Source: [Clostridium] aerotolerans DSM 5434
GTDB taxonomy: Bacteria; Bacillota; Clostridia; Lachnospirales; Lachnospiraceae
Assembly: GCF_000687555.1 (NCBI RefSeq)
Contig: NZ_JHWJ01000004.1
Coordinates: 124,001 to 188,000, forward strand
Length of the DNA stretch: 64,000 nucleotides
Direction of reading: 5' to 3'
The notes under the pieces are model-generated. The model had not been told where the DNA came from and made no database searches. It was given only the letters and a program-made list of their open reading frames with translations. The translations under genes and the position numbers were made by a program. Shown in pieces: positions 22,316-38,580 of the stretch (positions are counted from its first letter, which is position 1; the number at the start of each line of letters is the position of its first letter).

Positions 22316-23413
22316 ATGATGAAGAAAATTTTTAAAGTATGCATGTGCGGTATGGTTGCCGCCACCCTTATTTCCGGCTGTTCCAAAAAAGATGTAAAAG
22401 AAACGACACAAGCAAGCACAGAAGCTACCGAGTCCTCTGCACAGGAAACCGTGGCAACACAGGACTTAACTAATATTGATAACGGTAAAGTAACTCTTGG
22501 AGAGTATAAAGGAATCGAGGTCAAAAAAGATCCTGTTGAAGTGACTGACGAAGAGATCCAGCAGGCCATTGACCAGGATCTGGCAGCTCATGAGAAAAAA
22601 GTTGATGTTGACCGTGAAGTTAAGGACGGAGATGTGGTCAATATCGATTATGCCGGCACCAAGGATGGCGTTGCATTTGACGGAGGCACAGCAAAAGGCT
22701 ATGACCTTACCATTGGCTCCAACCAGTTTATTGAAGGATTTGAATCCGGACTGATCGGCGCTAAAAAAGGAGACAAGGTATCCTTAAATGTAACATTCCC
22801 TGAAAACTATCAGAACAAGGACCTGGCAGGAAAGCCGGTTGTGTTCGAAGTTACTGTGAATTCCGTACAGGAGAAACAGCTCCCTGAATTAAATGATGCA
22901 TACGTACAGGAAAATACAAAATCAAAGACCGTGGACGAGTACAAGGAAGAGACAAAGCAGACTCTTTTAAAGAGCAAAAACGATGCAGCAGAGCAGAAGG
23001 TTAAGAATGACATTTATACAGCCATTTCAGCTAACTGCAAGGTGGAACCAGAGCAGAAGGCCATTGATGCCAATTATGATAACCTGATTGCAAGATACAC
23101 CAACCAGGCAGCTGCTTACGGTATGGATTTCACTACCTTTATCACCGCATTTACCGGCATGAAAGAGGAAGACTTTAAGACCGCTGCTAAGACACAGGCA
23201 GAAGAGATCGTAAAGCAGAGACTGATCGTCAATGCCATTGCTGAAAAAGAGAAACTCGCTGTGACCGATGATGACCGGAAAGAAGTTGCGACTGAGTTAG
23301 GATATGAGAGCCCAGAAGAGCTGATTAAGGCAGAAGGACAGTTTGAAGTAGACGATTATGTGATGAATAACAAGGTAATGGAATACTTAATGCAGAACGC
23401 AGTGATCAAATAA
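22316..23413 (+). CDS. Exported trigger-factor-like FKBP peptidyl-prolyl isomerase lipoprotein
   Basis: 365 residues. Lipoprotein signal with lipobox ISGC (Cys near residue 22), then a Thr/Glu-rich linker. An FKBP-type domain follows (about 95-185: DGDVVNIDYAGTKDG, IGSNQFIEGFESGLIG, DKVSLNVTFPENY). The helical C-terminal arm domain resembles that of trigger factor (LPELNDAYVQENTKSKTVDE; DFKTAAKTQAEEIVKQRLIV). The ribosome-binding N-terminal domain of trigger factor is absent and replaced by the export signal. It likely folds secreted proteins on the outer face of the membrane, comparable in role to PrsA. Confidence 0.85.
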   Translation: MMKKIFKVCMCGMVAATLISGCSKKDVKETTQASTEATESSAQETVATQDLTNIDNGKVTLGEYKGIEVKKDPVEVTDEEIQQAIDQDLAAHEKKVDVDREVKDGDVVNIDYAGTKDGVAFDGGTAKGYDLTIGSNQFIEGFESGLIGAKKGDKVSLNVTFPENYQNKDLAGKPVVFEVTVNSVQEKQLPELNDAYVQENTKSKTVDEYKEETKQTLLKSKNDAAEQKVKNDIYTAISANCKVEPEQKAIDANYDNLIARYTNQAAAYGMDFTTFITAFTGMKEEDFKTAAKTQAEEIVKQRLIVNAIAEKEKLAVTDDDRKEVATELGYESPEELIKAEGQFEVDDYVMNNKVMEYLMQNAVIK

Positions 23414-23437
23414 TTAAATTCAACAGGAGGAACCTTT

Positions 23438-24022
23438 ATGCAGCTGTTAAAGGACAGAATACGTAAGGATGGCAAGATTAAATCCGGTGACGTACTTAAG
23501 GTAGATAGTTTTTTAAATCACCAGATGGATATTAAGCTGTTTGTTGAGATCGGAAAAGAGTTTAAAAGACGCTTTGCTGATTGTGAAGTCAATAAAATCT
23601 TAACGATTGAGGCCTCTGGGATCGGAATCGCCTGTATCGTTGCCCAGTATTTTGAAGTGCCGGTAGTATTTGCCAAAAAATCAAAGACAAAGAATATCGC
23701 AGGTGACGTTTACACCACACAGGTGGAGTCCTTTACCCATGGAAGAACGTATGATGTCATGGTATCCAAGGAATTTCTTGGGGCAGGAGACAAGGTGCTT
23801 TTAATTGATGATTTCCTAGCCAACGGAAAAGCCCTGGAAGGACTGGCTGCTATTGTAAAGGATTCCGGCGCTGAGCTTATTGGCGCAGGTATCGTAATTG
23901 AAAAAGGCTTCCAGCCGGGAGGTGACCGGTTGAGAGCAGAAGGTGTTAAGGTGGAATCCCTTGCCATCGTTGAACGTATGGACGAGACCACCGGTACTAT
24001 TTGTTTCAGAGGTGACAAATGA
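23438..24022 (+). CDS. xpt: Xanthine phosphoribosyltransferase
   Basis: 194 residues. N-terminus MQLLKDRIRKDGKIKSGDVL and PRPP-binding loop VLLIDDFLANGKAL are typical of Xpt. LTIEASGIGIACIVAQYF and PVVFAKKSKTKN also match. It converts xanthine plus PRPP to XMP in purine salvage. The 24-base gap to the previous gene leaves no room for the purine riboswitch often found before xpt. It overlaps the HAD gene by 4 bases. Confidence 0.93.
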   Translation: MQLLKDRIRKDGKIKSGDVLKVDSFLNHQMDIKLFVEIGKEFKRRFADCEVNKILTIEASGIGIACIVAQYFEVPVVFAKKSKTKNIAGDVYTTQVESFTHGRTYDVMVSKEFLGAGDKVLLIDDFLANGKALEGLAAIVKDSGAELIGAGIVIEKGFQPGGDRLRAEGVKVESLAIVERMDETTGTICFRGDK

Positions 24023-24816
24023 ACGAAAGACAGAAGGCGCTGTTCTTTGACATAGACGGCACGCTGTTTTCTGAAATCAACCGGAATGTTCCGGTAAGCG
24101 CCAAGGAGGCCATTGATCAGGCCAGAAAGAATGGTCATCTGGTATTTATCAATACCGGAAGGACCTACAGCCTGATCGGCCCTGTAGCGCGTATGGTGGA
24201 AGTAGACGGCTATTGCTGCGGTTGTGGCACCAGAGTTGTGGCAGGGGAGGAGATTCTTTACTCCACTACCATACCCAGAAAAAGAGGCAGCGAAATTAAG
24301 CAGATCATCATGAGACATAAGCTTGACGGAGTACTGGAAGGAACGGAAGGCTGTTATTTCAGAAATGAAGATTCCTGGATGCCTGTAGTAGCCAAGATGA
24401 AAGACCAGATGATAAAGGAAGGGAAAGTTTCCTCCTTTGGCTGGGATGAGGATTGCTACGACTTTGACAAGTTCTTTGTCCTGTCAGATGAAAACAGCGA
24501 TATCAAAGGATTTCACCAGGCATTGGAAGATGATATTGATATCATTAACCGAGGGAATGGCTTCTATGAATGCGTTCCAACCGGACATACCAAGGCGACT
24601 GGCATTGAGCTGATTATGAAGCACTATGATATTGATCTATCCGATGTCTACGTGTTCGGTGACAGCACCAATGACCTTCCCATGTTCCAGTTTGCTAAAA
24701 ATTGCGTACTGATGGGACATCACAGCGTGGAGCTGGAGCCGTATGCTACCTTCTTTACAAAGAATGTGGAAGATGATGGCGTGGCTTATGCGATGAAGAA
24801 GCTTGGACTTATTTGA
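24019..24816 (+). CDS. Cof-type HAD-superfamily phosphatase
   Basis: 265 residues. HAD motif I FFDIDGTLF (nucleophile Asp), motif II FINTGRT, and motif IV VFGDSTNDLPMFQFAKN, with a C2-type cap between. Cof-type enzymes dephosphorylate sugar phosphates or nucleotides/PLP; the exact substrate is not predictable. Translationally coupled to xpt through ATGA, suggesting possible action on nucleotide metabolites (inference). Confidence 0.85.
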   Translation: MNERQKALFFDIDGTLFSEINRNVPVSAKEAIDQARKNGHLVFINTGRTYSLIGPVARMVEVDGYCCGCGTRVVAGEEILYSTTIPRKRGSEIKQIIMRHKLDGVLEGTEGCYFRNEDSWMPVVAKMKDQMIKEGKVSSFGWDEDCYDFDKFFVLSDENSDIKGFHQALEDDIDIINRGNGFYECVPTGHTKATGIELIMKHYDIDLSDVYVFGDSTNDLPMFQFAKNCVLMGHHSVELEPYATFFTKNVEDDGVAYAMKKLGLI

Positions 24817-24844
24817 GAATGTAAATTAGTTAACTTTAAGCGAT

Positions 24845-24897
24845 AAGGGGCTGTTTCGAAATAGATGAATCATCTATTTTGCAACAGCTCCTTTTTT
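24845..24897. terminator. Bidirectional terminator, copy A of a duplicated hairpin
   Basis: A 22-bp stem (19 paired) with left arm starting GGGGCTGTTTCGAAATAGAT and right arm ending GCAACAGCTCC, followed by TTTTTT. It separates the convergent HAD and DUF6323 genes. A close relative of this hairpin recurs at 25574-25626. Confidence 0.8.
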
Positions 24898-24928
24898 ATG
24901 ATACAATCCATATCCATATAGTCTCCCA

Positions 24929-25471
24929 TTAATCCCAAAAGATTTCTTTTAAGACCTCCAGATATAACTCCCTGTCCCAACGTGTTACCTCATCGAACTG
25001 GCTGAATTCTCCGCTGCCGCCAGTTTGTTTATAACCGCGGTAACCTGCTCTGATAGCTTCTGTGAATTTCTCCAGACAAGTACCGGCAAGATATTCTAAG
25101 TCACCGGTACAGACCTCTTCAAACTGCTCTTTCATAAAGGTAAACAGTTCATCGTCAGTTAAGTTATCCTCCGATTCATTCTTGAACTGATAAAAGATAT
25201 CCTGGAGTTCGGTCAGCGTCTGCATGTAATTATCCTGCGTAATATACTGGGAATCACAGAAGTGGTATATAAGCTTTGGAAGAATTCCTTCCCCGAATTC
25301 CACCCTCTGGGTATTCTTAAGACTGTCATTTCTAAGTGCCACTAATTCCTTAGCCTCTTCATAGGATAAAGACAGGCCGAAGCTTTCTGTTTTTTCATTC
25401 ACTGCCAGAACTGCGGTTATTTCAGCCTCCTGCTTTTTAAGCTGCATTAATTCGAGTAAATTGTCCTCCAT
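24929..25471 (-). CDS. DUF6323-like protein of unknown function
   Basis: Start set at the ATG at 25471 because AAGGAGG lies 7 bases upstream; an earlier in-frame ATG lacks a site. 180 acidic, mostly helical residues without membrane segments or recognised catalytic motifs. The segment FGLSLSYEEAKELVALRN followed by VEFGEGILPKLIYHFCDS resembles the DUF6323 family of Lachnospiraceae. Function unknown. Flanked on both sides by copies of a related hairpin. Confidence 0.6.
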   Translation of the reverse strand: MEDNLLELMQLKKQEAEITAVLAVNEKTESFGLSLSYEEAKELVALRNDSLKNTQRVEFGEGILPKLIYHFCDSQYITQDNYMQTLTELQDIFYQFKNESEDNLTDDELFTFMKEQFEEVCTGDLEYLAGTCLEKFTEAIRAGYRGYKQTGGSGEFSQFDEVTRWDRELYLEVLKEIFWD

Positions 25472-25531
25472 AAATAATCCTCCTTCAAGATGGTATCTCA
25501 TTATAGGGCAGCTTCCAACCTATTACAAGAC

Positions 25532-25560
25532 TTGAAAAAATCGAGATTTTATGGTAATAT
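25532..25560 (+). promoter_or_regulatory. Promoter reading into hairpin copy B
   Basis: TTGAAA (25532-25537), 17-base spacer ending TGG, TAATAT (25555-25560). Transcription would begin near 25567, only a few bases before the hairpin at 25574. Confidence 0.55.
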
Positions 25561-25573
25561 ATATATACAGGAA

Positions 25574-25626
25574 AGAGCTGTTGTTTCGATAGATGAATCA
25601 TTTATCAAAGCAACAGCTCTCTTTTT
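25574..25626 (+). terminator. Terminator-like leader hairpin, copy B of the duplicated hairpin
   Basis: A 23-bp stem (about 20 paired), left arm AGAGCTGTTGTTTCGATAGA, right arm ending AGCAACAGCTCT, followed by CTTTTTATGAT. It shares most bases with copy A at 24845. It lies between divergently oriented genes, so it does not end a known gene. It may act as an attenuator of the downstream membrane-protein gene. Confidence 0.6.
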
Positions 25627-25671
25627 ATGATTAAAAACCAAACATAATCTATCTAATAGGGGGGTATTTGT

Positions 25672-26049
25672 ATGAATATTATAACGTTAAAAAACAAAAT
25701 GAAATGGGCAATGGGAACGAGTCTTTTACTTTACCTGGTCTACTTTTTATGCAGATATATGTTCATTCATTTGCACGGAATGAAAGAATGGCCTTTTGAT
25801 CTGCTGGTGTTTGGATTGATTATCATAACTGTGGCTGCTTTTTTAAATGCCAGAAGAGTAATGGTGTTGACGGTCGTAGGCTATATTGGCGGCTTTGCTA
25901 TGGGGATTATGTTTGGTATCGATGGAGTTGACCCAGGTGGGGGCAAGACTAATAATAAATGGTTGATTTGGACCCTTTCTTTTATAATCATTATTTTAGT
26001 AGGGGTTATTTGGGAAATGTTAAATAAGTATTTTATTAAGAATAGATGA
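25672..26049 (+). CDS. Small polytopic membrane protein, unknown
   Basis: 125 residues with about four hydrophobic segments (about 14-32, 43-60, 62-82, 98-117) and a glycine/aspartate loop GIDGVDPGGGK between the third and fourth. No family recognised. It has a GGGGGGT ribosome-binding site and a promoter/hairpin leader upstream (25532-25626). Codon use and AT content look like the rest of the window. Confidence 0.6.
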   Translation: MNIITLKNKMKWAMGTSLLLYLVYFLCRYMFIHLHGMKEWPFDLLVFGLIIITVAAFLNARRVMVLTVVGYIGGFAMGIMFGIDGVDPGGGKTNNKWLIWTLSFIIIILVGVIWEMLNKYFIKNR

Positions 26050-26095
26050 TAGATCTAAGTTTTTACGGTTAATCTCTTGTATTAGATGCTTTTAA

Positions 26096-26260
26096 GACTT
26101 AACAGGCGCTTGCGCTTACTATCACGCCAATCCATTTCGTGCAGTTAACTTTAGGGCTGATAAGGACGGTATCCTAAGATGTCCGAATGAAAAAGCATTT
26201 TATTTGGCTTATGGAAAATCTGTACTTGGATAAAATTTATGTTTGTCTATGGGGTAGGGG
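26096..26260 (+). pseudogene. IS1182-type transposase remnant, left side of the carbohydrate locus
   Basis: In the 333-base stretch before the transporter genes, one frame (26096-26232) reads YHANPFRAVNFRADKDGILR then CPNEKAFYLAYGKSVLG and a stop. This matches the late zinc-ribbon-like region of IS1182-family DDE transposases (xxNPFRxxNF...CPNGKxF). Both the start and the end of the gene are missing. The fragment runs into GTTTGTCTATGGGGTAGGGG (26241-26260), which recurs inverted at 36649-36668. The remaining 26261-26383 shows nothing convincing apart from a probable leader for the next gene. Confidence 0.75.
26241..26260 (+). repeat. 20-bp inverted repeat, left copy
   Basis: GTTTGTCTATGGGGTAGGGG. 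Its exact reverse complement occurs at 36649-36668, so the two face each other across the 10.4-kb carbohydrate locus. Both copies sit immediately 3' of transposase remnants and may be the right-hand end of the parent insertion sequence. Confidence 0.85.
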
Positions 26261-26397
26261 AGTGTAAAATTGAGACAGATGCTCTTTTATTGTCCCGATA
26301 TCATCCTATTTTGAACATTTCACCATCAGATATTGCATTTACAGCGGTACTGCTTTTTCGTAAAATGTACTTATAAAGTGAATTGGGAGGTAGTGTT

Positions 26398-27843
26398 ATG
26401 AGATTAAAGAAAATTATGGGTATCACTTTGGCTGCTTTAATGTTGGCAGGATCTTTGGCAGGCTGCTCCGGTGGGGGAGCGGCAAACGCAACTGCGGCGT
26501 CTCAGGGGGGAGAGACGACGGTGCAGGCAGAAACAAAACAGTCCGAGACGAAGTCCGGAGAGAAAACCGTTATAAACGTCTGGTCCAAGGACCGGCACGA
26601 TGCCACTTATGCACAGGCCAAGGTGGACGAATACAATGCAAATAACACGGATAATATTCAGATCAATTACCAGCTTTATACGGATAACTATGTGCAGGCC
26701 ATAGACATGGCGGTACAGAGTGGGGAGCTTCCGGATATTTTGGTGCAGCAGGAGCAGATGTTTGACAAATATGTCAACGAAGGACAATGGGCAAACCTCT
26801 ACGATTACATGGATGAGGATATGAAAACGTATTTTAAATCCGTCATCTTTCCCGGATATAATGAGTTTGATGGAAAGCTGTATTTCATTCCGACTACGGG
26901 AACCACATGCCGTCTCTTCTATAATAAAGAAATATTTGAACGGGTAGGAATCAAAGAGCCACCTAAAACATTAGAAGAGGTGGTGGAAGATGCCAAACTT
27001 ATTAATTCACAATTATCCAAAGAAGGTATCTATGGGTTTGCAGAAAACATGAAGAGTGCAAGCTCCGGTTTGCAGCGTTCCATGTGCATCGGGCTGGAGC
27101 GGGAGACCGGTCTGGTGCGGGGCTATGACTTTGCAAAAGGAGAATATGATTTTACCCAGTGGGCAGATACCTTAAAGCTGTGGAAGGAGCTGCTGTCCGA
27201 TGAATGCGCATTTCCAGGCTGTGAATCTCTGGATATCGATCCTTTAAGAACCCAGTTTGCAGCAGGAAAGATTGGCATGTACATGTCCTACAGCCATGCG
27301 GAGCCAGGAGTATACCAGAACCAGTTTCCCATGGATTCTTCCAAATGGGACTGTGTCCCTATCCCAACGGTTGGAGGGAAGGCTACAGGAAAACAGTATT
27401 TTACAGGTACGGGAGGCTATGTGATCAATGCCAAGAGTCCGAACGCAGAAAAGGCGTTTAAGGTATATAAGGATGTTTTTGCGAATGAAGATTATCTGGT
27501 GGGCTACTACGAAGGCGGATTTGGCGTGAGCATCCTTCAGAGTGTTATTGATAAGGCAAAGCCCGGAGAAGACTTTCAGAAAAAAGAATGGCTTCTGATC
27601 AGCGATATAGACGCACTTCTTCCAAAGCCGCCTCACAGCGCGTTTGCTTCCGGTATGGTGGTAGAAGGGGAAGATATGTATAAAACCTGTGAGTCCATTT
27701 ATTATGGGGACGCGGATATTGAATCCACATTAAAGGATTTGACAGAGCGTTATAACAAGGCATATAAAGATGCGGTTAAAAATGGAACCGGACGTGAGAT
27801 CAAAATTGAAAATTACGATCCGATGAATCCTACTTTGAAATAA
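26398..27843 (+). CDS. Extracellular sugar-binding lipoprotein of an ABC importer
   Basis: Start at ATG 26398, 7 bases after GGGAGG. 481 residues: signal peptide with lipobox LAGC (Cys about 23), Gly/Ala/Gln-rich linker, then a family-1 solute-binding fold (TVINVWSKDRHDATYAQAKV, ELPDILVQQEQMFDKYV, TGTTCRLFYNKEIFERVG). It captures an oligosaccharide for the two permeases encoded next. No ATPase gene is present, as is usual for CUT1 importers that share an MsmX-type ATPase. The neighbouring lyase suggests the ligand is a uronic-acid-containing oligosaccharide. Confidence 0.9.
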   Translation: MRLKKIMGITLAALMLAGSLAGCSGGGAANATAASQGGETTVQAETKQSETKSGEKTVINVWSKDRHDATYAQAKVDEYNANNTDNIQINYQLYTDNYVQAIDMAVQSGELPDILVQQEQMFDKYVNEGQWANLYDYMDEDMKTYFKSVIFPGYNEFDGKLYFIPTTGTTCRLFYNKEIFERVGIKEPPKTLEEVVEDAKLINSQLSKEGIYGFAENMKSASSGLQRSMCIGLERETGLVRGYDFAKGEYDFTQWADTLKLWKELLSDECAFPGCESLDIDPLRTQFAAGKIGMYMSYSHAEPGVYQNQFPMDSSKWDCVPIPTVGGKATGKQYFTGTGGYVINAKSPNAEKAFKVYKDVFANEDYLVGYYEGGFGVSILQSVIDKAKPGEDFQKKEWLLISDIDALLPKPPHSAFASGMVVEGEDMYKTCESIYYGDADIESTLKDLTERYNKAYKDAVKNGTGREIKIENYDPMNPTLK

Positions 27844-27861
27844 TGGCTTAAGCAATATCTT

Positions 27862-27893
27862 AAAGAGAGGACAGCTTTAAAGGTCCTCTCTTT
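27862..27893 (+). terminator. Stem-loop between binding protein and permease genes
   Basis: Perfect 11-bp stem AAAGAGAGGAC / GTCCTCTCTTT with a 10-base loop, followed by CTTTG. It probably lowers read-through, or protects the upstream mRNA, so that binding protein is made in excess over permease, a common arrangement. Confidence 0.7.
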
Positions 27894-27917
27894 CTTTGAA
27901 AAGAAAGGAGTACGCAG

Positions 27918-28856
27918 ATGAAAGATCAGAAAAACAGAAGTATTCTGCAAAGAAAAAAGGCTGTGAAGCGGAATGTGCAGGCATATGCGTTCATGCTGCC
28001 CAACCTGATCTTATTTACGGTCTGTTCCTTATATCCGGTTGTCTGGACCTTAAAATATGTATTTTATCAGTACGGCGGATATGGAACAGGAGTGCCCCGC
28101 TTTGTGGGACTTGACAATCTGGCGCGGGTGTTTCGGGATAAGGTTTACTGGGAAAGCGTGATGCACACATTTACATACGGCTTTGGAAAGGTGCTTATTA
28201 TCATTCCTCTGGCATTCTTTCTGGCGTTTCTCTTAAACGGGCAGATACGGGGCAACGGGGTGGCACAGAGCATTGTATTTTTGCCTACCATCATGAGCTC
28301 CGCTGTTATGGGGCTTGTCTTTTATCTGTTATTCAATGCCTATAATGGAGAAGTCAATAAATATTTGATGGAGGCTGGGCTGGTAAGCCGGCCGGTCAAC
28401 TGGCTTGGAAAGGATCATGCCATGAAGACCCTGATTCTCACCGCAGTCTGGGGAGGCGTGGGGAATTATATGGTTTATTTTATCGCTGGGATCCAGCAGG
28501 TTTCGGAGGACGCCATTGAAAGCGCCAGAATCGATGGAGCGGGACGGCTGCAGACCATCTGGTACATCATCATTCCCATGCTGGGGCCCATCTTAAAAAT
28601 CATTCTCATGCTGGCAATTACCTCGGCTTTTCACGACATTACCAATGTTATGGTCTTAACGGAAGGCGGTCCCAACAATGCGACCATGGTTATGTCTCTA
28701 TATGGTTACCGCTATTTCTTTCCCATATCAGCGGCGGAGGCGACAGTACCCCAGTATGGCTACGGTGCCGCAGTCAGCGTGATTTCCGCAGTTATTGCAG
28801 GTGCGGTGACCCTGGGCTATTTAAAAATATCAAAGAAGCTGGACAGCATTTATTAA
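27918..28856 (+). CDS. ABC sugar permease, MalF/LacF-like
   Basis: 312 residues with about six membrane segments and the inner-loop EAA motif (DAIESARIDGAGRLQTIWYI) that contacts the ATPase. First of two permease subunits following the binding protein; starts with AAAGGAG. Forms the heterodimeric channel with the next gene product. Confidence 0.92.
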   Translation: MKDQKNRSILQRKKAVKRNVQAYAFMLPNLILFTVCSLYPVVWTLKYVFYQYGGYGTGVPRFVGLDNLARVFRDKVYWESVMHTFTYGFGKVLIIIPLAFFLAFLLNGQIRGNGVAQSIVFLPTIMSSAVMGLVFYLLFNAYNGEVNKYLMEAGLVSRPVNWLGKDHAMKTLILTAVWGGVGNYMVYFIAGIQQVSEDAIESARIDGAGRLQTIWYIIIPMLGPILKIILMLAITSAFHDITNVMVLTEGGPNNATMVMSLYGYRYFFPISAAEATVPQYGYGAAVSVISAVIAGAVTLGYLKISKKLDSIY

Positions 28857-28868
28857 GGAGGCGGCAGC

Positions 28869-29732
28869 ATGGCAGAAATGAATAAAAAACACTTATCAAA
28901 AACCGCGTGGGCCGCACTCATTGGAAAATGGCTTTTTCTTGGGATCATGATCATATTTACTCTCTATCCGGTGGTGTATACGGTACTTGGTTCCTTAAAA
29001 ACAAATGCAGAGCTGACTCAGGGAGGCGGATTTTTTCCGGCGGCCTGGCATTTTGAAAATTATTATCAGGCTTTTGTTCAGGCGGATTTCACCAAATATA
29101 CCATAAACAGCGTAATCGTCAGCGCTTCCGTAACCTTATTGGCGGCGGCTACCTGCTCCCTGGCCGGATTTATACTGGCAAGAAAGGATTTTGCAGGCAA
29201 GAAGGTGCTGATGGCCCTTTATTTATCCATGATGTTTGTGTCCCTGGGCTCTGTTACCTTGTACCCGATTTACGAGCTGCTGCGGGCCTTGAAGCTGAAC
29301 AAGACCATTTTCGCCCTTATCATTGCTCTTACCGGAGGTCAGGCGGCCAATGTATTTCTGGTCATGGGATTTACAAAGGGAATTCCAAGAGAACTTGATG
29401 AAGCAGCCATTATTGACGGATGCAGCTTGTATGGGGTATACTCCCGCATCATTCTTCCTCTGAGCAAACCGATTTTGGCTGTTGTGGCCCTGTTTTCGTT
29501 CCGAAATGCATGGAATGATTACATCACCAGTTTGATTATGACAATTTCCAAGCCAAAGCTTCAGACCCTTACGGTGGCTGTGGTACAGTTAAAGTATTCC
29601 GTCAATGCGGCGGCCGAGTGGCATATTATGCTGGCGGGTGCATCCATTGCCATCATTCCGATCCTGATCGTCTATTTGTTTGCCAATAAACAGTTCATAG
29701 CCGGGCTTACGGCAGGGGCAGTAAAAGGATAA
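28869..29732 (+). CDS. ABC sugar permease, MalG-like
   Basis: 287 residues, six predicted membrane segments, EAA motif ELDEAAIIDGCSLYGVYSRI, and the typical C-terminus KQFIAGLTAGAVKG. It begins 12 bases after the first permease gene with TAAGGAGG. Second half of the CUT1-type importer channel. Confidence 0.92.
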   Translation: MAEMNKKHLSKTAWAALIGKWLFLGIMIIFTLYPVVYTVLGSLKTNAELTQGGGFFPAAWHFENYYQAFVQADFTKYTINSVIVSASVTLLAAATCSLAGFILARKDFAGKKVLMALYLSMMFVSLGSVTLYPIYELLRALKLNKTIFALIIALTGGQAANVFLVMGFTKGIPRELDEAAIIDGCSLYGVYSRIILPLSKPILAVVALFSFRNAWNDYITSLIMTISKPKLQTLTVAVVQLKYSVNAAAEWHIMLAGASIAIIPILIVYLFANKQFIAGLTAGAVKG

Positions 29733-29794
29733 GGAAAAAGAACCGACGCTGTGATATACTGAAAAAAATGGAGTTGAACAGGGGGCGGGGTATC

Positions 29795-31618
29795 ATGAAA
29801 AGAGTCTGGAACAATCTTCGGTTCCGCAGCAAGATCATATGGCTGTTTGGAGTCATGTTTTTCTTTACCACGGTTATCAGCGGTCTGTCTTATTACCGGT
29901 ATACTTCCAATGATATAGAAGAAAATTTCCAGGTAGGAGCGGAAGATGTTCTTGTTCAGATCGCTGACACTCTAGGAATGCGCCTTGGAGTCATCAACCA
30001 GAGGGCAAAGGGAATGCTGGCCAACTACACGTTTATGGTGACTCTATCCGATTATTTAAACAACCCCAATGATATCAACCTGGTAAAGGCACTGGGGACG
30101 GTTCCCGACTTTATGAAGGATTTTGAAACAGGAGAGAGTCTCATTCATTCTACTTTCATTTACACCGATAAAGGCAGCTTCGATAATTTCGTCCGCATGC
30201 GGAACTGGGATTTTGATTTCCAGGAGTCTGTTTTCTACAAAAGCTATGAGGATAGTCCGGGTAAATCCATACGCTGGTTTCCGGTATGGACAGACCAAAT
30301 ATTTCAGGATAATGACCAGGTGATCCCCATCGTATGGCAGTTCAGCGTTCAGGGCTATGTGGGAGTGGAATATCTGGTGATTCAGCTGAAAAAAACGGAA
30401 CTGGAACGGCTTTTGGAAGGAAAATATGAGTTCTTTGACAAGATTCTGATATTGGATGAAACGGGAAACGTCCTGATCGGCTCCATGGGAATCGATTCGA
30501 AGGAGCTGATGAAGCTGTCCGAAACAAGAAAAGCAGGCAGCAACGTTATTACAAGTGATTACCGGTATGATGGAGACACCTACCTGGTCACCTACGAAAG
30601 CCTGAAAGAAAATGGCTGGCAGATATATGGCCTCAAATCCAGGCAGACCTTGCTTGGCAGCTTAAAGAATCTGCGGAATGTGATTTATGAGATCATGGGA
30701 ATCGCGTTCCTGTTCACAGTTGCCGCCATTCTTCTTTTATCCCACCAGTTAACGGATTCCCTGCGGCGGCTGGAGAAACGGATGAGCTGCGTGGAAAAAG
30801 GAGATTTAAGCGTCCGGTTTTTCTATCCTTATAAGGATGAGGTCGGGAGCCTTGCAAAAACATTTAACTACATGATTGGAGAAATCCAAAGTCTGGTGCA
30901 GAAGCAGGAGGAGACCATTGAGGAACTGAAACGGGAGCGGGATTATGTTTCAGAGGTGCAGAAACAGAAGCGGAAAGCGGAATTAAAGGCGCTTCAGGCC
31001 CAGATTAATCCTCATTTTCTTTATAATACCCTTAACGCTATTACCTGGCAGGCCGCGGACCAGGGAGCAGAAGAGATCAGCATCCTTTCCAACTCTTTGG
31101 GGAAGTTTTTCCGCATCAGCTTAAGCAAGGGAGCCGAGATTATTACTCTGGCAGAGGAATTGGAGCATGTGGCAAGTTACCTTAAAATCCAGAGCATCCG
31201 CTACCATTCCCGCTTGTCCTATGAGATAGATATGGATGAAAAATGGCTGGAGACCCGGCTGATCAAGCTGATTTTACAGCCGCTGGCGGAAAACGCCATT
31301 TATCATGGAATAAAGGAAACAAAGGGCGCCGGAAATATCAGGATCTACGGAAAAACCTACACTATATCCCAGCAGGTGGTTTTGGAACTTTCCGTTTGGG
31401 ATAACGGAGCCGGTATTCCGGAGGATAAGCTGGTTCAAATGAATGAAACTCTGGAAATGGGCGGGACGGACAGCAAGGCAGGCTATGGCATTTATAATGT
31501 AAACGAAAGAATCCGGTTATTTTACGGGGACGGCTATGGACTGCGCTATGAAAGCAGTTTTGGTCATTGGACGAGAGCCATATTAACAATTCCAACAAAA
31601 ACAGGCGAGGTGGAATGA
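29795..31618 (+). CDS. YesM-type sensor histidine kinase
   Basis: Start at ATG 29795, preceded by AGGGGGCGGGG; the ATG 27 bases earlier has no site. 607 residues: membrane segment near 18-38, a large extracellular sensor, a second membrane segment near 295-315, a HAMP linker (RRLEKRMSCVEKGDLSVRF), a coiled coil, the phospho-acceptor motif AQINPHFLYNTLNAI, and an ATPase domain (QPLAENAIYHG, DNGAGIP, GYGIYNVNERI). It probably detects the transported saccharide or its binding protein and signals to the AraC-type regulator encoded next. Confidence 0.92.
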   Translation: MKRVWNNLRFRSKIIWLFGVMFFFTTVISGLSYYRYTSNDIEENFQVGAEDVLVQIADTLGMRLGVINQRAKGMLANYTFMVTLSDYLNNPNDINLVKALGTVPDFMKDFETGESLIHSTFIYTDKGSFDNFVRMRNWDFDFQESVFYKSYEDSPGKSIRWFPVWTDQIFQDNDQVIPIVWQFSVQGYVGVEYLVIQLKKTELERLLEGKYEFFDKILILDETGNVLIGSMGIDSKELMKLSETRKAGSNVITSDYRYDGDTYLVTYESLKENGWQIYGLKSRQTLLGSLKNLRNVIYEIMGIAFLFTVAAILLLSHQLTDSLRRLEKRMSCVEKGDLSVRFFYPYKDEVGSLAKTFNYMIGEIQSLVQKQEETIEELKRERDYVSEVQKQKRKAELKALQAQINPHFLYNTLNAITWQAADQGAEEISILSNSLGKFFRISLSKGAEIITLAEELEHVASYLKIQSIRYHSRLSYEIDMDEKWLETRLIKLILQPLAENAIYHGIKETKGAGNIRIYGKTYTISQQVVLELSVWDNGAGIPEDKLVQMNETLEMGGTDSKAGYGIYNVNERIRLFYGDGYGLRYESSFGHWTRAILTIPTKTGEVE

Positions 31619-33213
31619 TGTACCGTGTGCTGATTATTGATGACGAAGACTATGTAAGAGATTTGCTGGTTAGAAACATCCATAGTTCTGACCTTGATGC
31701 AGAGGTGGTGGCTGTGGCTGGCGACGGAAGGGAGGGGTTGAAGGAAGCTCTTTCAAAGAAGCCGGATATTGTGATAACAGACATTGCCATGCCCTTTATG
31801 AACGGTCTGGAGTTGATAAAAGAGATGCAGAAGGCCGGCCTTCACAGCAAAAATGTGGTCATAAGCGGATACGATGAATTTGATTATGCAAAACAGGCCA
31901 TATCCCTGGGGGTAAAGGACTATTTATTAAAACCCTTTCTTCCAAAAGAGCTGACGGAGGTGTTAATGAAGCTGCTGAAAGAACTGGACAGTCAGAAAGC
32001 CTTGCAGCAGAATATGAGTCTTTTAAAGGAACAGGCCATAAGCCGGGAAGGGCTTGTACGGGAAAAGGCCTTAAGAGCGCTGCTGAAGGGGAAGGAGTGC
32101 CAGACAGAGACAGACATTTCTCTGGAAGGTAAATATTATGCAGCAGGGGTCATGCGGCTGGAAGGAAGTGCCTGGGATTTCAGCAGACAGGAGCAGGTGG
32201 AGGAATTCTTGATGCTGGTGAGAAACGGCTATCTCCTTCCCGATATGTTCATGTATGCGGTCAGCTTTGACGGCATACAGCTGGCTGTGATCTGGTGCGG
32301 AAGCGGAGAAAATGAAGATGGTTTCCTGAGAAACATTGGCCTTGTCCTGGAAAAAATCAATGTCAGTCTGGAAAAGTATTATCATTTTCAATTGAGCTGT
32401 GCGGTTGGAAAGGCTTACACCAGCCAGCTGGACTTAGAACATTCCTATCGTGAAGCCATGGCTATGTGGCGGGGGAATTTAGACGGAAACCGGCAGATCC
32501 TCTTTTATGGAGAGGATAATGGAAAGAAAGAAGAAATCACCAGCGGTCAGATCCGGGAATGGAAAAATCAGATTCGAATGTCCGTAAGGCGGGGACAAAA
32601 GGAAGATGCTCTTAAAAGCTTAGCCGGGCTGATGAAGTGCTATGCTTCCTATTCCAATAAGAAAAATGACTACGTCAGTGTATCTGTGGGGGAGCTGGTT
32701 TATGCCATTCAAAATGACATGGAACAGGAAGGCTATGACCGGGCAGATACAGAGCCTTTGACCTCCATGCAGGACCGGATTACATATGGAAGCCTTATGG
32801 ATATGAAAGATATGCTGGATTCCTATATCAGAAAATGCTGTCTGGTGGTCAGGGATAATTCAGAGGAAACAAAGGCGGATGCGGTGGTAAAGCTGATAAA
32901 GCTGATGATTGAAAATGATCTGCAAAATGTGGATCTGGATCTGGAATGGGTAGCTGCAAAGGTGCATTTCAGTTCCAGCTATGTAAGACAGATTTTTAAG
33001 CAGTATGTGGGGGAAAGTCTTGGAGAATATTTGATTCGGAAACGGATGGAACGGGCTGGTAAGCTTTTACAGAAAACCGGATTAAAGATTCAGGAAATTG
33101 CAGAAGAGTGCGGTTATGAGAATCAGAGGTATTTTGCCAGCAGCTTTAAAAAATTTTACGGGTGTACGCCTACGGAATTTAAAAAGGCGGTGGAAGAAGA
33201 GCATTTATATTAG
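31618..33213 (+). CDS. YesN-type response regulator (REC + AraC HTH)
   Basis: Start at ATG 31618, whose A is the last base of the kinase stop codon; GAGGTGG precedes it. 531 residues: receiver with D8-D9-E10 and Asp55 (IVITDIAMPF), a long central region (about 125-420) typical of YesN, and a C-terminal AraC double HTH (FSSSYVRQIFKQYVGESLGE; IQEIAEECGYENQRYFASSF). It likely activates the importer and lyase genes in response to the adjacent kinase. Confidence 0.92.
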   Translation: MYRVLIIDDEDYVRDLLVRNIHSSDLDAEVVAVAGDGREGLKEALSKKPDIVITDIAMPFMNGLELIKEMQKAGLHSKNVVISGYDEFDYAKQAISLGVKDYLLKPFLPKELTEVLMKLLKELDSQKALQQNMSLLKEQAISREGLVREKALRALLKGKECQTETDISLEGKYYAAGVMRLEGSAWDFSRQEQVEEFLMLVRNGYLLPDMFMYAVSFDGIQLAVIWCGSGENEDGFLRNIGLVLEKINVSLEKYYHFQLSCAVGKAYTSQLDLEHSYREAMAMWRGNLDGNRQILFYGEDNGKKEEITSGQIREWKNQIRMSVRRGQKEDALKSLAGLMKCYASYSNKKNDYVSVSVGELVYAIQNDMEQEGYDRADTEPLTSMQDRITYGSLMDMKDMLDSYIRKCCLVVRDNSEETKADAVVKLIKLMIENDLQNVDLDLEWVAAKVHFSSSYVRQIFKQYVGESLGEYLIRKRMERAGKLLQKTGLKIQEIAEECGYENQRYFASSFKKFYGCTPTEFKKAVEEEHLY

Positions 33214-33226
33214 GAGGGGACGGGAT

Positions 33227-35233
33227 ATGATTCAATTTACGGAACAGGAAATCCGGCATTTGCAGGAAAAAGGAAAAAGGCAGCCCCAGGCCATCTGGAA
33301 TTTAAAGAAAGCGACAAAAGAGATTATGGAGGATCCCATACGGGTTCCCAAGACGGGGATCGCCAACTGGACTCTTTATTATTACTGCCCCAATTGCTCC
33401 GTATCTTTAAGCTATGACCGAAGCGACGGTTTTCATCACCAGTGTCCGTCCTGCGGTCAGGTGTTTTCGGGTGAGCCCTATGACAGTGCCTGGTGGGGGA
33501 TAACCAACAACAAAAATTATACGGCGGCCTTCCAGATGGGCTTAATCAGCAGGATCACCGGGGAAATGGAGTATGCCAGAAAAGCAATTGATATCATGGC
33601 AGAGTATGCCAGGTATTATAACGGATATGAGGTTCATGGGAATATTCCGTATAACGGCCCTGGAAAGTCAGGGGCCCAGACCCTTGATGAAGCTAACTTT
33701 CTTCGCAGTTTTGCCATGGCCTATGATCTGTTATGGGATTTTATGACGGAGGAGGAAAGGGAGCATATAAAGAAAGAGATGTTTCTTCCGGGCGCGGAGT
33801 TTCTCATAGAGCACCGCCATAAACAGCTTCATAACCATGAGGTGATCATAAATTCTGCCATTGCTATTATCGGACTGATCTTTCATATAGATTCTTATAT
33901 CAGGTTTGCCGTTTATGAGCCTTATGGGCTTTTATATCAGCTGGAAAAGGGGATGCTTGCGGATCATATGTGGTTTGAAGGGGCTTTTGGATATCATTTT
34001 TATGCGCTGACCAGTTTCTTTGCTTATGAGAAATTCGCTCTTCATACGGAGCACAGCCATATCAGACATCCAAATTATAAGGCCATGATGGAGCTTCTGG
34101 TGTCTTATTTGGAGCCTGGATTTCGCATTCCCATGTTAAATGACACGAATTACGGGCATACATCTAAAAGCTTGTATCTCTATGAATTTGCTTACAGAGA
34201 AATGGGGGGAGATAAGCTTTTGTATGTGCTGAATCAGCTTTATAAAGAGGAGAAAAGGGACAATTCAGAGGCATTTATCTATGGCGTTGACCAGCTGCCC
34301 GCGCAGGAAACAGTTCTAGAGAATTATCATGGAAAGACAGGGGAGTCCGGCAGCACCATATTAAGGGGAACTAACGGCAGGTACTTACTGCTGAAGCATG
34401 ACCGGTATGGCGGGGAGCATGATCATTATGACCGCCTGGCAATCAGCTATCTGGGGTTTGGAAAACGGATTTCCCCGGATCTTGGAACCACAGGATATGG
34501 AGCTGTGATGCATTATGATTATTATAAGAATACAGGCTCCCATAATACGGTGAATATCGGAGAAGAAAACCAGTCTCCGGTCAATGCCAGACTCACAAGG
34601 TATGAAGAACGGGATGGCGTTGTGTATGTGGAGGCGGAAGCAGACTGGAGAGCTCCCTTTGAAATGCCGGACACATTTACCATTGAGCAGTGGAAGGAAG
34701 AGAATTACTGCGGAGTAAAGATGGAGAGAAAGATCGCCTGGGCGGAAGATTACTTTGCAGAGGTATTCGTGGTAAAAGGAGTCGGAAAAGATTTACCCAT
34801 AGACTGGGTGATGCATGTTTCCGGGGAAACTATTACTGCGCCGGAAGGAAAGAAAATAGAGTGCTTTTCTGACCGTAAACCCTACCGGCATCTGCATTCT
34901 ATGAAGAAAACAGATCGTTTAAATGAAGGAAAGGGGAATTCGGTATTCTCTTATATGGATGGAGAAATACGAACGGATGTGTTTACCTGGAATCTGGGCA
35001 AGGAACTATATTACGGGAAAGGACCGGATAATCCTTCGGTTTCAGATATTAATTATCAGATTGAGCGAGCGTATGGGCAGGAAGCGGTATTTGCCCATGT
35101 GATAACCAGCAGCAATGGTCCCTGCAGGATCGACCAGGTGGACTTTTCCTGGCAGTCAGGCACAATGTTGGTTATGGTGGAAGGGAAAGAGAATGGAAGC
35201 GGAAGGGTATGGAGCAAAGAGCTTAGAATGTAA
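33227..35233 (+). CDS. Heparinase II/III-like polysaccharide lyase with N-terminal zinc ribbon
   Basis: Start at ATG 33227, 7 bases after AGGAGGGG. 668 residues without a signal peptide, so probably cytoplasmic and acting on imported oligosaccharides. Residues about 50-80 hold two CxxC pairs (C54/C57 and C73/C76), a zinc-ribbon-like module. Next comes an alpha-helical toroid (TLDEANFLRSFAMAYDLLWD, KQLHNHEVIINSAIA with probable catalytic Asn/His). A beta-sheet domain follows (GGEHDHYDRLAISYLGFG, NTGSHNTVNIGEENQSP). The fold matches lyases that cleave uronic-acid polysaccharides by beta-elimination (heparin, alginate and similar). The exact polysaccharide-lyase family and substrate cannot be settled here; an exo-oligouronide lyase is my best guess. 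Confidence 0.75.
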   Translation: MIQFTEQEIRHLQEKGKRQPQAIWNLKKATKEIMEDPIRVPKTGIANWTLYYYCPNCSVSLSYDRSDGFHHQCPSCGQVFSGEPYDSAWWGITNNKNYTAAFQMGLISRITGEMEYARKAIDIMAEYARYYNGYEVHGNIPYNGPGKSGAQTLDEANFLRSFAMAYDLLWDFMTEEEREHIKKEMFLPGAEFLIEHRHKQLHNHEVIINSAIAIIGLIFHIDSYIRFAVYEPYGLLYQLEKGMLADHMWFEGAFGYHFYALTSFFAYEKFALHTEHSHIRHPNYKAMMELLVSYLEPGFRIPMLNDTNYGHTSKSLYLYEFAYREMGGDKLLYVLNQLYKEEKRDNSEAFIYGVDQLPAQETVLENYHGKTGESGSTILRGTNGRYLLLKHDRYGGEHDHYDRLAISYLGFGKRISPDLGTTGYGAVMHYDYYKNTGSHNTVNIGEENQSPVNARLTRYEERDGVVYVEAEADWRAPFEMPDTFTIEQWKEENYCGVKMERKIAWAEDYFAEVFVVKGVGKDLPIDWVMHVSGETITAPEGKKIECFSDRKPYRHLHSMKKTDRLNEGKGNSVFSYMDGEIRTDVFTWNLGKELYYGKGPDNPSVSDINYQIERAYGQEAVFAHVITSSNGPCRIDQVDFSWQSGTMLVMVEGKENGSGRVWSKELRM

Positions 35234-35271
35234 AAACAAAATATATGGGAGATAAGAAAGGAGGGAAGGAA

Positions 35272-36642
35272 TTGAAACAGGACATAAAACAGGTTTTAAA
35301 TTACGACGTAGTTATCATCGGCGGAGGTCCTGCTGGCACAGCAGCGGCCATTGCCAGTGCCAGAAACGGAGCCAGGACGCTTCTGGTGGAGCAATATGGC
35401 TGTCTGGGCGGAATGCTGACAATGGGCGGAACTGGTCCCCAGATGACCTTTCATGCCGGAAGCACACAGGTGGTCCGTGGGATTGCGGAGGAGATCGTGG
35501 AACGTATGGTAAAAGAAGGATTTTCTCCGGGCCATATGGAGGACTTTGTGGGTTACGCCAGTTCAGTAACTCCTTTTGATGCGGAAGGAATGAAGCTGAT
35601 ATTAGAAACCATGGTGAAGGAAGCGGGAGCTGATCTGCTGTATCATACCGTTTACACTGGATGTGAGCGGGAGGACCGCAGGATCAGTAAGGTGCATCTA
35701 TATGGAAAACAGGGATTTTTTGATGTGACTGGAACGATTTTCATCGACGCATCAGCAGATGGCGATCTCGCCGTACATGCGGGGATTGAAAGCGTATACG
35801 GAAGAGAAGAGGATCATCTTGCCCAGCCCATGACAATGAACGTCAAGGTACAGAATGTGGATAGGGAAAAGGTGATTGAATACGTAAAGCAGAATTCGGA
35901 TGACATGCTCTCAACCATTCCGTTTGACCGTCTGGAGCTGATTCCAAGAAGCGGAGTGCAGGGAGCATATTCTGTAATCAGAAAGGCAAAGGAATCAGGA
36001 GAATTCCCCATTGACAGGGATATGGTGCTGTGCTTTGAGACCAATAATCTGGGAGAATATATTCTTAACATGTCACGGATCAAGAGGAAAAGTCCGTTGA
36101 ATTCCTTTGATTTAACGGAGGCAGAAATAGAAGGAAGAAAACAGGCTCATATAATTGTAAACCTCATGAGAAAATATGTACCGGGATTTGAACAGGCGGT
36201 CATCGTGGCTACTGGACCCCATATTGGCGTGCGGGAAAGCCGAAAAATCAATGGCGCATATAAGCTTACCGCTTCCGATCTGCTTCAGAATAAGATGTTT
36301 GAAGATGCCATTGCTATGGGCGGTTATCCGATTGACCTCCATTCGCCTGACGGAGAGGAGACAAAGCATTATCATTTAAAACGGGGAAGCTGGTATTCCA
36401 TTCCATACCGCTGCCTGTATACCAATGAGCTGGATAATCTTCTGGTAACCGGCAGGTGTATGAGCGCCACTCATGAAGCCTGTGGGGCAGTCCGTGTGAC
36501 GCCCATACTAATGGCCATCAGCCAGGGGGCCGGAACTGCGGCAGCTCTTGCAGCCGGTCAGGAGTGTAGTGTGGCGGAAATTGATGTGGAACAGCTTAGA
36601 GAAATTTTAAAGACCCAGGGGGCATTTCTTGACCCTTATTAA
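35272..36642 (+). CDS. FAD-dependent oxidoreductase of the carbohydrate locus
   Basis: The likely start is TTG 35272, because AAAGGAGGG lies just upstream; the in-frame ATG at 35245 has no ribosome-binding site and would run through it. 456 residues with an N-terminal dinucleotide-binding motif VVIIGGGPAGTAAAIA and the C-terminal FAD motif NLLVTGRCMSATHEA followed by GAGTAAALAA. This matches the FAD_oxidored (PF12831-type) family often found in polysaccharide-use clusters. Substrate unknown; it may oxidise or reduce a lyase product. Last gene of the locus; its stop is 6 bases from the right-hand inverted repeat. Confidence 0.8.
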   Translation: MKQDIKQVLNYDVVIIGGGPAGTAAAIASARNGARTLLVEQYGCLGGMLTMGGTGPQMTFHAGSTQVVRGIAEEIVERMVKEGFSPGHMEDFVGYASSVTPFDAEGMKLILETMVKEAGADLLYHTVYTGCEREDRRISKVHLYGKQGFFDVTGTIFIDASADGDLAVHAGIESVYGREEDHLAQPMTMNVKVQNVDREKVIEYVKQNSDDMLSTIPFDRLELIPRSGVQGAYSVIRKAKESGEFPIDRDMVLCFETNNLGEYILNMSRIKRKSPLNSFDLTEAEIEGRKQAHIIVNLMRKYVPGFEQAVIVATGPHIGVRESRKINGAYKLTASDLLQNKMFEDAIAMGGYPIDLHSPDGEETKHYHLKRGSWYSIPYRCLYTNELDNLLVTGRCMSATHEACGAVRVTPILMAISQGAGTAAALAAGQECSVAEIDVEQLREILKTQGAFLDPY

Positions 36643-36648
36643 TGCAGT

Positions 36649-36668
36649 CCCCTACCCCATAGACAAAC
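36649..36668 (-). repeat. 20-bp inverted repeat, right copy
   Basis: Exact reverse complement of 26241-26260. It lies 6 bases after the FAD oxidoreductase stop codon and directly 3' (minus strand) of a transposase remnant. Confidence 0.85.
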
Positions 36669-36818
36669 TGATATTTACTTTGCAGTTGTCTTCAAGTTCC
36701 CGAAGTGACATATATCCGCTTGTCATAAAACCGGATCACAAATATCAAAAAAATCTGAAATAAACATTGGCAAAATACCCTGTTTTGTTCTATTGTAAGA
36801 TGTGGTTTGATTTTTCAT
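36649..36818 (-). pseudogene. IS1182-type transposase remnant, right side of the carbohydrate locus
   Basis: On the minus strand an ATG at 36818 opens SYNRTKQGILPMFISDFFDI then CDPVL and a stop. A frame shift and apparent deletion lead to GFMTSGYMSLRELEDNCKVN, then a stop. Both pieces match the N-terminus of Lachnospiraceae IS1182-family transposases, where about 40-50 residues normally lie between them. The catalytic domain is gone. With the flanking 20-mer this occupies about half of the 366-base gap before the next gene; the rest holds a terminator (36839-36886). Confidence 0.78.
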
Positions 36819-36838
36819 ATTCAGTTAAATATTACCAC

Positions 36839-36886
36839 AAAAGAGGAATTCCAACTCATTAACTATGAGTCGAAATTCCTCTTTTT
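36839..36886. terminator. Bidirectional terminator
   Basis: 12-bp stem AAAAGAGGAATT / AATTCCTCTTTT enclosing a second inverted repeat ACTCAT / ATGAGT, followed by TT. It can end transcripts from either side of the gap between the carbohydrate locus and the minus-strand dehydrogenase gene. Confidence 0.75.
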
Positions 36887-37008
36887 AATTTGGCTGTTTT
36901 TCACAGCCCCTTTTTCTATATCATCTACATTTTTATTCATTTAGTTCGTTTAAGTAATCTACAGCTTCAAGATTATTCAGTAACTTGATTCAGCTTTTAT
37001 GATTACTA

Positions 37009-38421
37009 TTAAGATACAATTTTATTAAGAATACTTCTAGCCACACTAATCCCATTAGCAGATGCCTGCTGTAACCCTCTGGTCACAGACGCTCCATCTC
37101 CAATGGCTCTAAGTCCTTCCACACTGGTCTCAAAGTCAGCATTCACAACAACCTTATTGGAATAGAACTTAACCTCAACTCCATATAATAAAGTCTCATC
37201 GCTGGCGATACCTGGAGTTACCTTATCAAGAGCTAAAAGCATCTCTTTTATGTCAACCATAATACGGTGAGGGAATACTAAGGATAAGTCTCCCGGTACG
37301 GCATCCTTTAAGGTAGGGATGATATTATTTCTGCATAATCTCTCCTCTGTGGTTCTTCTTCCTCTCTGGAAGTCGCCGAAGGTCTGAACCAGAATCTTGC
37401 CATCGCAGAGCATGTTGCTGAGCTGGGCGATGTGCTTGCCGTATTCAATTGGGGTCTTAAATGGTTTTGTAAAGTTCTTGGAAACAAGAATGGCGAAGTT
37501 TGTGTTGTTCGTCTTGAATTCCTGGGATTTATAAGCATGACCGTTGACAACGGCCAGTCCATTTTCATAATATTCTGTGGCTACCTCGCCGGAAGGGTTG
37601 GTACAGAAGGTACGCACCTTGTCGTCAAAGGTAGGAGTGTAATACACAAGCTTGGCTTCGTAAAGGTTCTTATTTAAAAACTCCATGACCTCGTCCCGGA
37701 CTTCTACCCGGACACCGATGTCTACGGTTCCAACCATTGTTTCAATGTTATGATGATTGCAGATGTGGCTGAACCAGTCAGAGCCTTCCCGTCCGATGGC
37801 AGACACGATTTCGTCTGCATAAATGGTCTCGTCCTTATCGGTAATAATGCCTTTTGCCTTATTATCTTCAATGATAATATCCTTTACCATGGTGTTAAAG
37901 GCCATCTCCACGCCCTGTTCCAGTAAATGCTCCTGAAGGCGGGTATAGATCTTATAGCCCTCTTCCGTACCCAAATGGCGGATAGGACACTCAATCAGCT
38001 TTAAATTGGCATTGATGGCACTTCGGCGGATTTCCTGGATCTCCTTTTGCTTGTCAACGCCGTAGACATTTTCATCTGCGCCGAATTTCAGATAGATATT
38101 ATCGGATTCTTTTAACAGCTCCACGGTTTTATCGTATCCTAAAATCTCCGGAAGATTGCCTCCCACATCAGGAGATAAAGAAAGCTTTCCGTCAGAGAAT
38201 GCTCCGGCTCCTGCAAAGCCTGTGGTAATGGAGCAAGGCTTACAGCCAACGCATGTCTTGGTGGTACGCTTTGGACACATCCGTTTTTCAATGGGGCGTC
38301 CCTTTTCAATCATAAGTATCTTAAGTTCCGGTTTCTTCTCAATCAGTTCATAGGCACAGAAAATGCCGGAGGGGCCTGCACCAATGATGATCACATCGTA
38401 TTTTTTGTTTGCATCCTTCAT
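37009..38421 (-). CDS. NAD(P)/FAD-dependent dehydrogenase (COG2509-like)
   Basis: Start set at the ATG at 38421, 8 bases after AAGGAG; upstream GTG/ATG codons overlap that site. 470 residues: FAD-binding YDVIIIGAGPSGIFCAYEL, a cysteine-rich insert CVGCKPC following KRTTKTC, GAGAFSDGKLSLSP, and the C-terminal motif LRAIGDGASVTRGLQQASANG. It belongs to a widespread, poorly characterised family of FAD-dependent dehydrogenases. The cysteine cluster could bind a metal or take part in redox chemistry (inference). Substrate unknown; monocistronic. Confidence 0.82.
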   Translation of the reverse strand: MKDANKKYDVIIIGAGPSGIFCAYELIEKKPELKILMIEKGRPIEKRMCPKRTTKTCVGCKPCSITTGFAGAGAFSDGKLSLSPDVGGNLPEILGYDKTVELLKESDNIYLKFGADENVYGVDKQKEIQEIRRSAINANLKLIECPIRHLGTEEGYKIYTRLQEHLLEQGVEMAFNTMVKDIIIEDNKAKGIITDKDETIYADEIVSAIGREGSDWFSHICNHHNIETMVGTVDIGVRVEVRDEVMEFLNKNLYEAKLVYYTPTFDDKVRTFCTNPSGEVATEYYENGLAVVNGHAYKSQEFKTNNTNFAILVSKNFTKPFKTPIEYGKHIAQLSNMLCDGKILVQTFGDFQRGRRTTEERLCRNNIIPTLKDAVPGDLSLVFPHRIMVDIKEMLLALDKVTPGIASDETLLYGVEVKFYSNKVVVNADFETSVEGLRAIGDGASVTRGLQQASANGISVARSILNKIVS

Positions 38422-38580
38422 GAACATCACTCCTTTTTCCTTCTAACCCTTAGAAACAGCCATCACGCAGCCGGCGGAAATAACAACCGAATTTGAACTT
38501 ATATAAGCGCAACGGTATCATTTTATCATAATGGAGACAGGAATTACAAGGGATAAGATATTAAATATTCATTGATAGCC

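Follow-up and report, generated by a model that had tools for sequence, protein, structure and literature searches.

Operons for the use of uronate oligosaccharides of the alginate type, with heparinase II/III-like lyases, group the genes of an importer, a two-component regulator, a lyase and an oxidoreductase. The same grouping is seen in an operon of [Clostridium] aerotolerans DSM 5434, which lies in a stretch of 64,000 nucleotides of contig NZ_JHWJ01000004.1 (positions 124,001 to 188,000; the whole stretch is called the window here) and whose lyase, in contrast, scores far below the cut-off of the curated oligoalginate lyase profile (64.9 bits against 1400 bits). The operon is bracketed by two decayed transposase fragments of insertion sequences (IS), presumably of the IS1182 family, to which the original prediction, made from the DNA letters alone, had also assigned them. 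Both borders of the operon carry one and the same 20-mer in inverted orientation (Table 1).

Among the IS-bordered islands described so far, TnSha1 and TnSha2 resemble the window locus in that metabolic cargo is reported to be associated with an element of the IS1182 family, IS1272, in islands with IS at their borders; TnSha2 is reported to form islands bordered by IS1272 (PMC4923244). The cargo unit of TnSha1 and TnSha2 is bounded by IS repeats and occurs, with the same IS, at many sites, whereas the IS copies of the window look different and the IS-operon-IS unit was found once (PMC4923244). Some members of the IS1182 family are reported to make no target duplication (PMC5678879, PMC4923244). 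Within the Lachnospiraceae, the IS1182-type copies of G024, G151, G209, G112, G410 and G345 have transposase homology in common with the window fragments and share the terminal repeat AAGGGGCTGTGAAA with the right one; in contrast to them, both window copies are deeply deleted.

On the evidence given below we consider it fairly probable that an accessory uptake-and-cleavage operon entered a hot spot between convergent genes, that the decayed remnants bordering it stem from two different IS1182-type elements, and that the 20-mer represents conserved sequence from within the IS 3′ end rather than a mobilising terminus; IS1182-type activity may have helped to open or rearrange the insertion site. 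The locus would then be an ordinary case of an accessory operon bordered by IS remnants at a hot spot, and a composite transposon is not supported. It illustrates how an IS-bracketed locus may resemble a composite transposon without bearing the evidence of one, given that a short identical border sequence may turn out to be an internal feature conserved across an IS group; it also documents a Lacrimispora site at which sugar-use, defence-type and other genes replace one another, and points to a conserved 3′-end element in a group of IS1182-type elements.

Origin of the 20-mer at the operon borders

The 20-mer GTTTGTCTATGGGGTAGGGG forms a perfect inverted pair of 20 bp at the two borders, as the original prediction had noticed, and no match arose across 100 shuffles. 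The window holds no third match with up to three mismatches, the pair is the only one in the 4.73-Mb genome with up to two, none of the 24 other genomes of the genus has a match with up to one, and no exact match was found among the genome contigs of a wider collection (which may omit near records), nor any match of the left border among plasmids. When three mismatches were allowed, 48 of 397 genomes of the family gave a match, many probably by chance, the reversed control also matching many genomes.

The origin of the 20-mer is indicated by its last 15 bases (TCTATGGGGTAGGGG), which occur exactly 27 times in 11 of the 397 family genomes (4 times for the reversed control). Outside the window, 21 of the 25 occurrences stand behind IS1182-type transposase sequence, and one more lies in the same IS 3′ end with no transposase found nearby; because 22 of the 25 mark IS1182 3′ ends, the core of the 20-mer is, judging from these sequence contexts, an internal piece of the IS 3′ end. 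Related IS copies have TCTATGGGGTAGGGG about 20 bp past the transposase end and continue for about 95-110 bp further; the 20-mer had been supposed to be the terminal repeat of the parent IS, which is contradicted by this internal position. The element defined by the G024 copies has AAGGGGCTGTGAAATAA as the terminal repeat of either end; only one of the four (L097, among L096-L099) was matched at full length without a stop, the others matching piecewise and in some cases with stops. Of the 22 copies, 17 were examined for a strict pattern of the far end, which 12 of them showed, and inspection by eye revealed variants in three of the remaining five. The 15-base element is found in the copies of G151, G209, G112, G410 and G345, and those of G024 keep its last 11-12 bases. 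At the operon itself, transposase homology stops 15 bp before the core on the left and reaches the core on the right. Five extra bases, GTTTG, precede the core in both 20-mers; since the right-hand transposase alignment passes through them to the core, part of the shared GTTTG may on that side be transposase sequence.

Three other origins of the 20-mer were considered and rejected: a private dispersed repeat (the multi-copy genomes led to IS1182 3′ ends, the exact 15-mer being decisive), the FVYGKG codons of the middle of the transposase (the order of the left fragment would be wrong, and at the 3′ end many copies match all 15 bases), and an ancestral upstream element of the operon, matched with five mismatches in G008 (a much poorer fit than the 15 of 15 positions shared with the IS element). 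No two of the four sequences adjoining the 20-mers are alike, these being a late transposase segment, a transposase N-terminus and two operon ends, and the copies are identical at 20 of 20 positions even though both fragments have diverged from the known IS copies. These features would fit a templated duplication, in which one stretch of 20-25 bp was copied inverted to the other border during break repair as the operon joined; each copy, however, adjoins a piece of the core's own IS family, so that no copying event is needed for the 15-base core, and such a duplication appears highly improbable.

Some observations concern the 15-base element elsewhere. It is unchanged between IS1182-type copies (L190-L195, L197, L204-L229) whose identity over a transposase stretch is only about 65%, and predicted folds of the L190-type copies show it paired with the transposase gene's end. 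Three of the 25 outside occurrences (L205, L211 and L215; G313, G162 and G193:C66) have a common, unrelated conserved context, in which the 15-mer stands just upstream of a short reading frame and which is possibly another mobile element. Among viral contigs, 31 stretches contain the 15-mer.

The chromosomal site in related genomes

The site was compared by a blast of window positions 23400-38500 against the 24 genus genomes. It is flanked by a gene for a HAD-type phosphatase (named by eye), which ends at 24816, and by the gene of a flavin adenine dinucleotide (FAD) protein at 37009-38430 on the other strand, the two being convergent with their tails facing. The aligned ends of the flanks are 63-152 bp apart in 14 of the 24 genomes, which represents an empty site; in nine they are 1.5-5.3 kb apart with other DNA between them, and in one (G014) the two flanks are on separate contigs. 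Fifteen of the 24 sites were read with protein alignments and two more for content, the gap in G005 being taken from blast, as the alignment of its FAD gene is incomplete. Because the sites of the relatives are empty or differently filled, as is characteristic of genomic islands, the site is an insertion hot spot and the operon block is accessory. The original prediction is upheld to the extent that the block is accessory and was probably acquired at this site. An empty site lacking 26.1-36.8 kb had also been suggested as a sign of mobility, and this was found in part: the flanks are adjacent in those 14 genomes, but the empty sites lack about 12.2 kb relative to the window, and none of the genus genomes was seen to miss the operon alone. 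Some of the left flank may predate the insertion of the operon, since G009 has a relative (72%) of the small gene at 25672-26049 beside the same flank (L041 7118-7287).

The position of the operon is occupied in G003 by an AbiLi/AbiLii-like pair (L051 2505-4464) and in G013, G015, G021 and G024 by ATPase genes that are similar by eye (L052, L053, L267 and L268 among the loci). Three of the empty sites were folded (G017, G020 and G018), and each has a terminator-like hairpin between the genes.

Relatives of the operon

The closest relative of the operon is that of G001, which lies at another chromosomal site; homology extends over window positions 26262-36650 in two pieces (91% and 88%), with edges within two bases of the 20-mers. 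Operons of about 75-80% identity, with homology starting at 26298-26308, are present in G008, G005, G020, G019, G004 and G007, and more diverged ones in further genus genomes, the operon or a diverged form of it being found in many of the 24; G022 and G023, whose flanks are 96-97% identical, show no operon-length match among the matches listed. In comparison with G001 the operon genes have 88.7-92.7% identity (median 91.3%), against a median of 83.4% for 28 other window genes that were matched in the fetched G001 stretches (p 4e-5). As the operon genes are nearer to G001 than the other window genes, this comparison suggests acquisition of the operon by horizontal transfer; its base composition is not unusual.

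Two IS remnants and the question of a composite transposon

Transposase sequences were searched in 25 genus genomes (the own genome included) with a transposase from G024 as the query, which gave both window fragments and one further fragment in the own genome, at C9; a scan of the own genome with the PF13751 profile gave no match. Relative to a 525-residue IS1182-type transposase, residues 3-37 of the right remnant are encoded at 36711-36815 and residues 65-94 at 36664-36753, both on the minus strand and with internal stops (E 1.4e-6 and 7.7e-6 in a protein search of whole genomes). Both remnants point toward the operon, tail to tail with their 3′ ends facing it, in agreement with the original description of decayed pieces on opposite strands, the left one from a late segment and the right one from the N-terminus. 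The left remnant is 62% identical in amino acids to the L190 transposase. At the nucleotide level it is 70% identical to L190 and L195, 68% to L199 and 61% to L197; the corresponding values for the first part of the right fragment are 87% to a copy in G106, 84% to L197 and 66% to L190, and the right remnant as a whole is 87-88% identical to the G106 copy. Counted as L190:L197 at the sites that distinguish these two, the left fragment scores 20:10 (p 0.10), while the right fragment favours L197 in its first part (3:36) and is neutral in its second (6:5). The affinities of the two fragments thus differ (20:10 against 9:41, Fisher 2.6e-5 with both right parts; 2.7e-7 with the first part only), and because of this difference they look like pieces of two different IS1182-type elements, a mosaic parent being possible.

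Several points weigh against the proposal of an operon at a hot spot between remnants of two elements. The left fragment has only about 110 bp (109 bp compared) and its own split is not significant, and the right fragment is uninformative in its second part. Different transposase regions are compared, and a mosaic parent could yield the same contrast. Moreover, the two inner junctions coincide in IS position to about 5 bp and share the GTTTG in addition, a coincidence that independent decay does not predict, as two unrelated truncations would rarely match. Lastly, the lowest identity to G001 among the operon genes is reached or exceeded by five of the 28 other window genes.

The original prediction had been a former composite transposon, in which two inverted copies of one IS1182 element brought the operon and then decayed. 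Inverted, inward-facing pieces on both sides are what such a unit would leave; the block edges fall on the IS junctions, the right copy keeps an intact outer repeat, and IS1272 is reported to make cargo-bearing units in staphylococci (PMC4923244). The difference in affinity nevertheless argues against two copies of the same IS, even if the left fragment is short and its parent could be a mosaic. Between 24817 and 26240 no left outer repeat was found with up to three mismatches, the best site having four mismatches of 14 and lying within a hairpin repeat at 24845. The IS copies do not abut the cargo, the last 95-110 bp of the IS being gone at both inner junctions, and the transposase was found in none of 13 operon loci of relatives, which represent no more than 11 places and for the most part include flanks of about 1.5 kb or shorter. 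The composite transposon is consequently regarded as rather unlikely.

The symmetry of the junctions could also reflect the structure of the target. Tail-to-tail IS1182 ends would form a palindrome, and the operon may have entered its centre by structure-targeted IS1182-type transposition or by break repair, the 20-mers being the arms of the hairpin and the operon its loop. With the operon omitted, the 20-mers are indeed predicted to fold as a 20-bp stem, which follows from the exact inverted repeat; IS1272 and TnSha1 have been reported to target hairpins and to delete stem-loops without target duplication (PMC5678879, PMC4923244), and capture of this kind would account for symmetric inverted junctions from two different elements. 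On the other hand, no relative with the empty palindrome, the expected intermediate, was found, the operon block has no transposase of its own, and it would be left unexplained why both remnants have internal deletions stopping close to the 20-mer; such an event seems unlikely. A more specific form, in which two different IS1182 elements, their 3′ ends facing each other, made the palindrome that took up the operon at its centre, with TCTATGGGGTAGGGG fixing the junction, would amount to a structure-guided building of IS-bordered metabolic islands and is, in our judgement, distinctly unlikely; if true, palindrome capture would offer a way for IS-flanked cargo to arise without a composite transposon.

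Other hairpins are present near the left border. Two similar hairpin repeats, at 24845-24893 (GGGGCTGTT...AACAGCTCC) and 25574-25620 (AGAGCTGTTG...CAACAGCTCT), bracket the DUF6323 gene at 24929-25501, and in G001 a hairpin somewhat like them (L042, around 2676-2724) adjoins the operon on its left.

Genes of the accessory operon and their putative function

The accessory operon comprises the seven genes listed in Table 1. The content announced by the original prediction (importer, two-component system, lyase and oxidoreductase) was found, with the exception of the importer's ATP-binding gene, which is absent from the operon block. The solute-binding protein has no Pfam match. The lyase aligns with seven solved alginate-lyase sequences over parts of residues 92-448 (E 6e-20 to 2e-13), and no signal peptide was recognised in it by eye.

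Table 1. Features of the operon and its borders, in window coordinates (ABC, ATP-binding cassette)
Feature	Position	Strand	Basis or remark
Left IS1182-type transposase remnant, late segment, residues 372-409	26120..26233	+	Protein search E 2.3e-4, one stop
Left 20-mer copy	26241..26260	+	Last 15 bases are the conserved IS1182 3′-end element
Promoter/operator-like stretch, ATTTTGAACAT...GATATTGCATTTAC	26305..26342	+	Upstream alignment; putative function
Solute-binding protein, carbohydrate ABC importer	26398..27843	+	NCBIfam sugar-binding matches far below cut-off
ABC permease	27918..28856	+	PF00528
ABC permease	28869..29732	+	PF00528
Sensor histidine kinase	29768..31618	+	HAMP, His_kinase PF06580, HATPase
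Response regulator, AraC-type DNA-binding domain	31615..33213	+	
Heparinase II/III-like polysaccharide lyase	33227..35233	+	Nearest solved relatives are alginate lyases
FAD-dependent oxidoreductase	35245..36642	+	PF12831
Right 20-mer copy	36649..36668	-	
Right IS1182-type transposase remnant, N-terminus with internal deletion	36664..36815	-	Residues 3-37, then 65-94
Terminal inverted repeat AAGGGGCTGTGAAA of right element, outer end	36899..36912	-	14/14 match

To judge from these families, the operon probably serves to import an acidic sugar polymer and to cleave it. The sensor kinase and the AraC-type regulator would detect an acidic (uronate) oligosaccharide and switch on a promoter within the block; the importer would take in the oligosaccharide with an ATPase encoded elsewhere, a cytoplasmic lyase would cut it, and the FAD enzyme may act on a product of the lyase step. 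The upstream stretch ending in GATATTGCATTTAC is shared by every one of the 14 distinct upstream sequences in an alignment (that of the window included), and with up to two mismatches the promoter/operator-like stretch has one site in the window; since this conserved stretch lies inside the block, the operon probably carries its own promoter.

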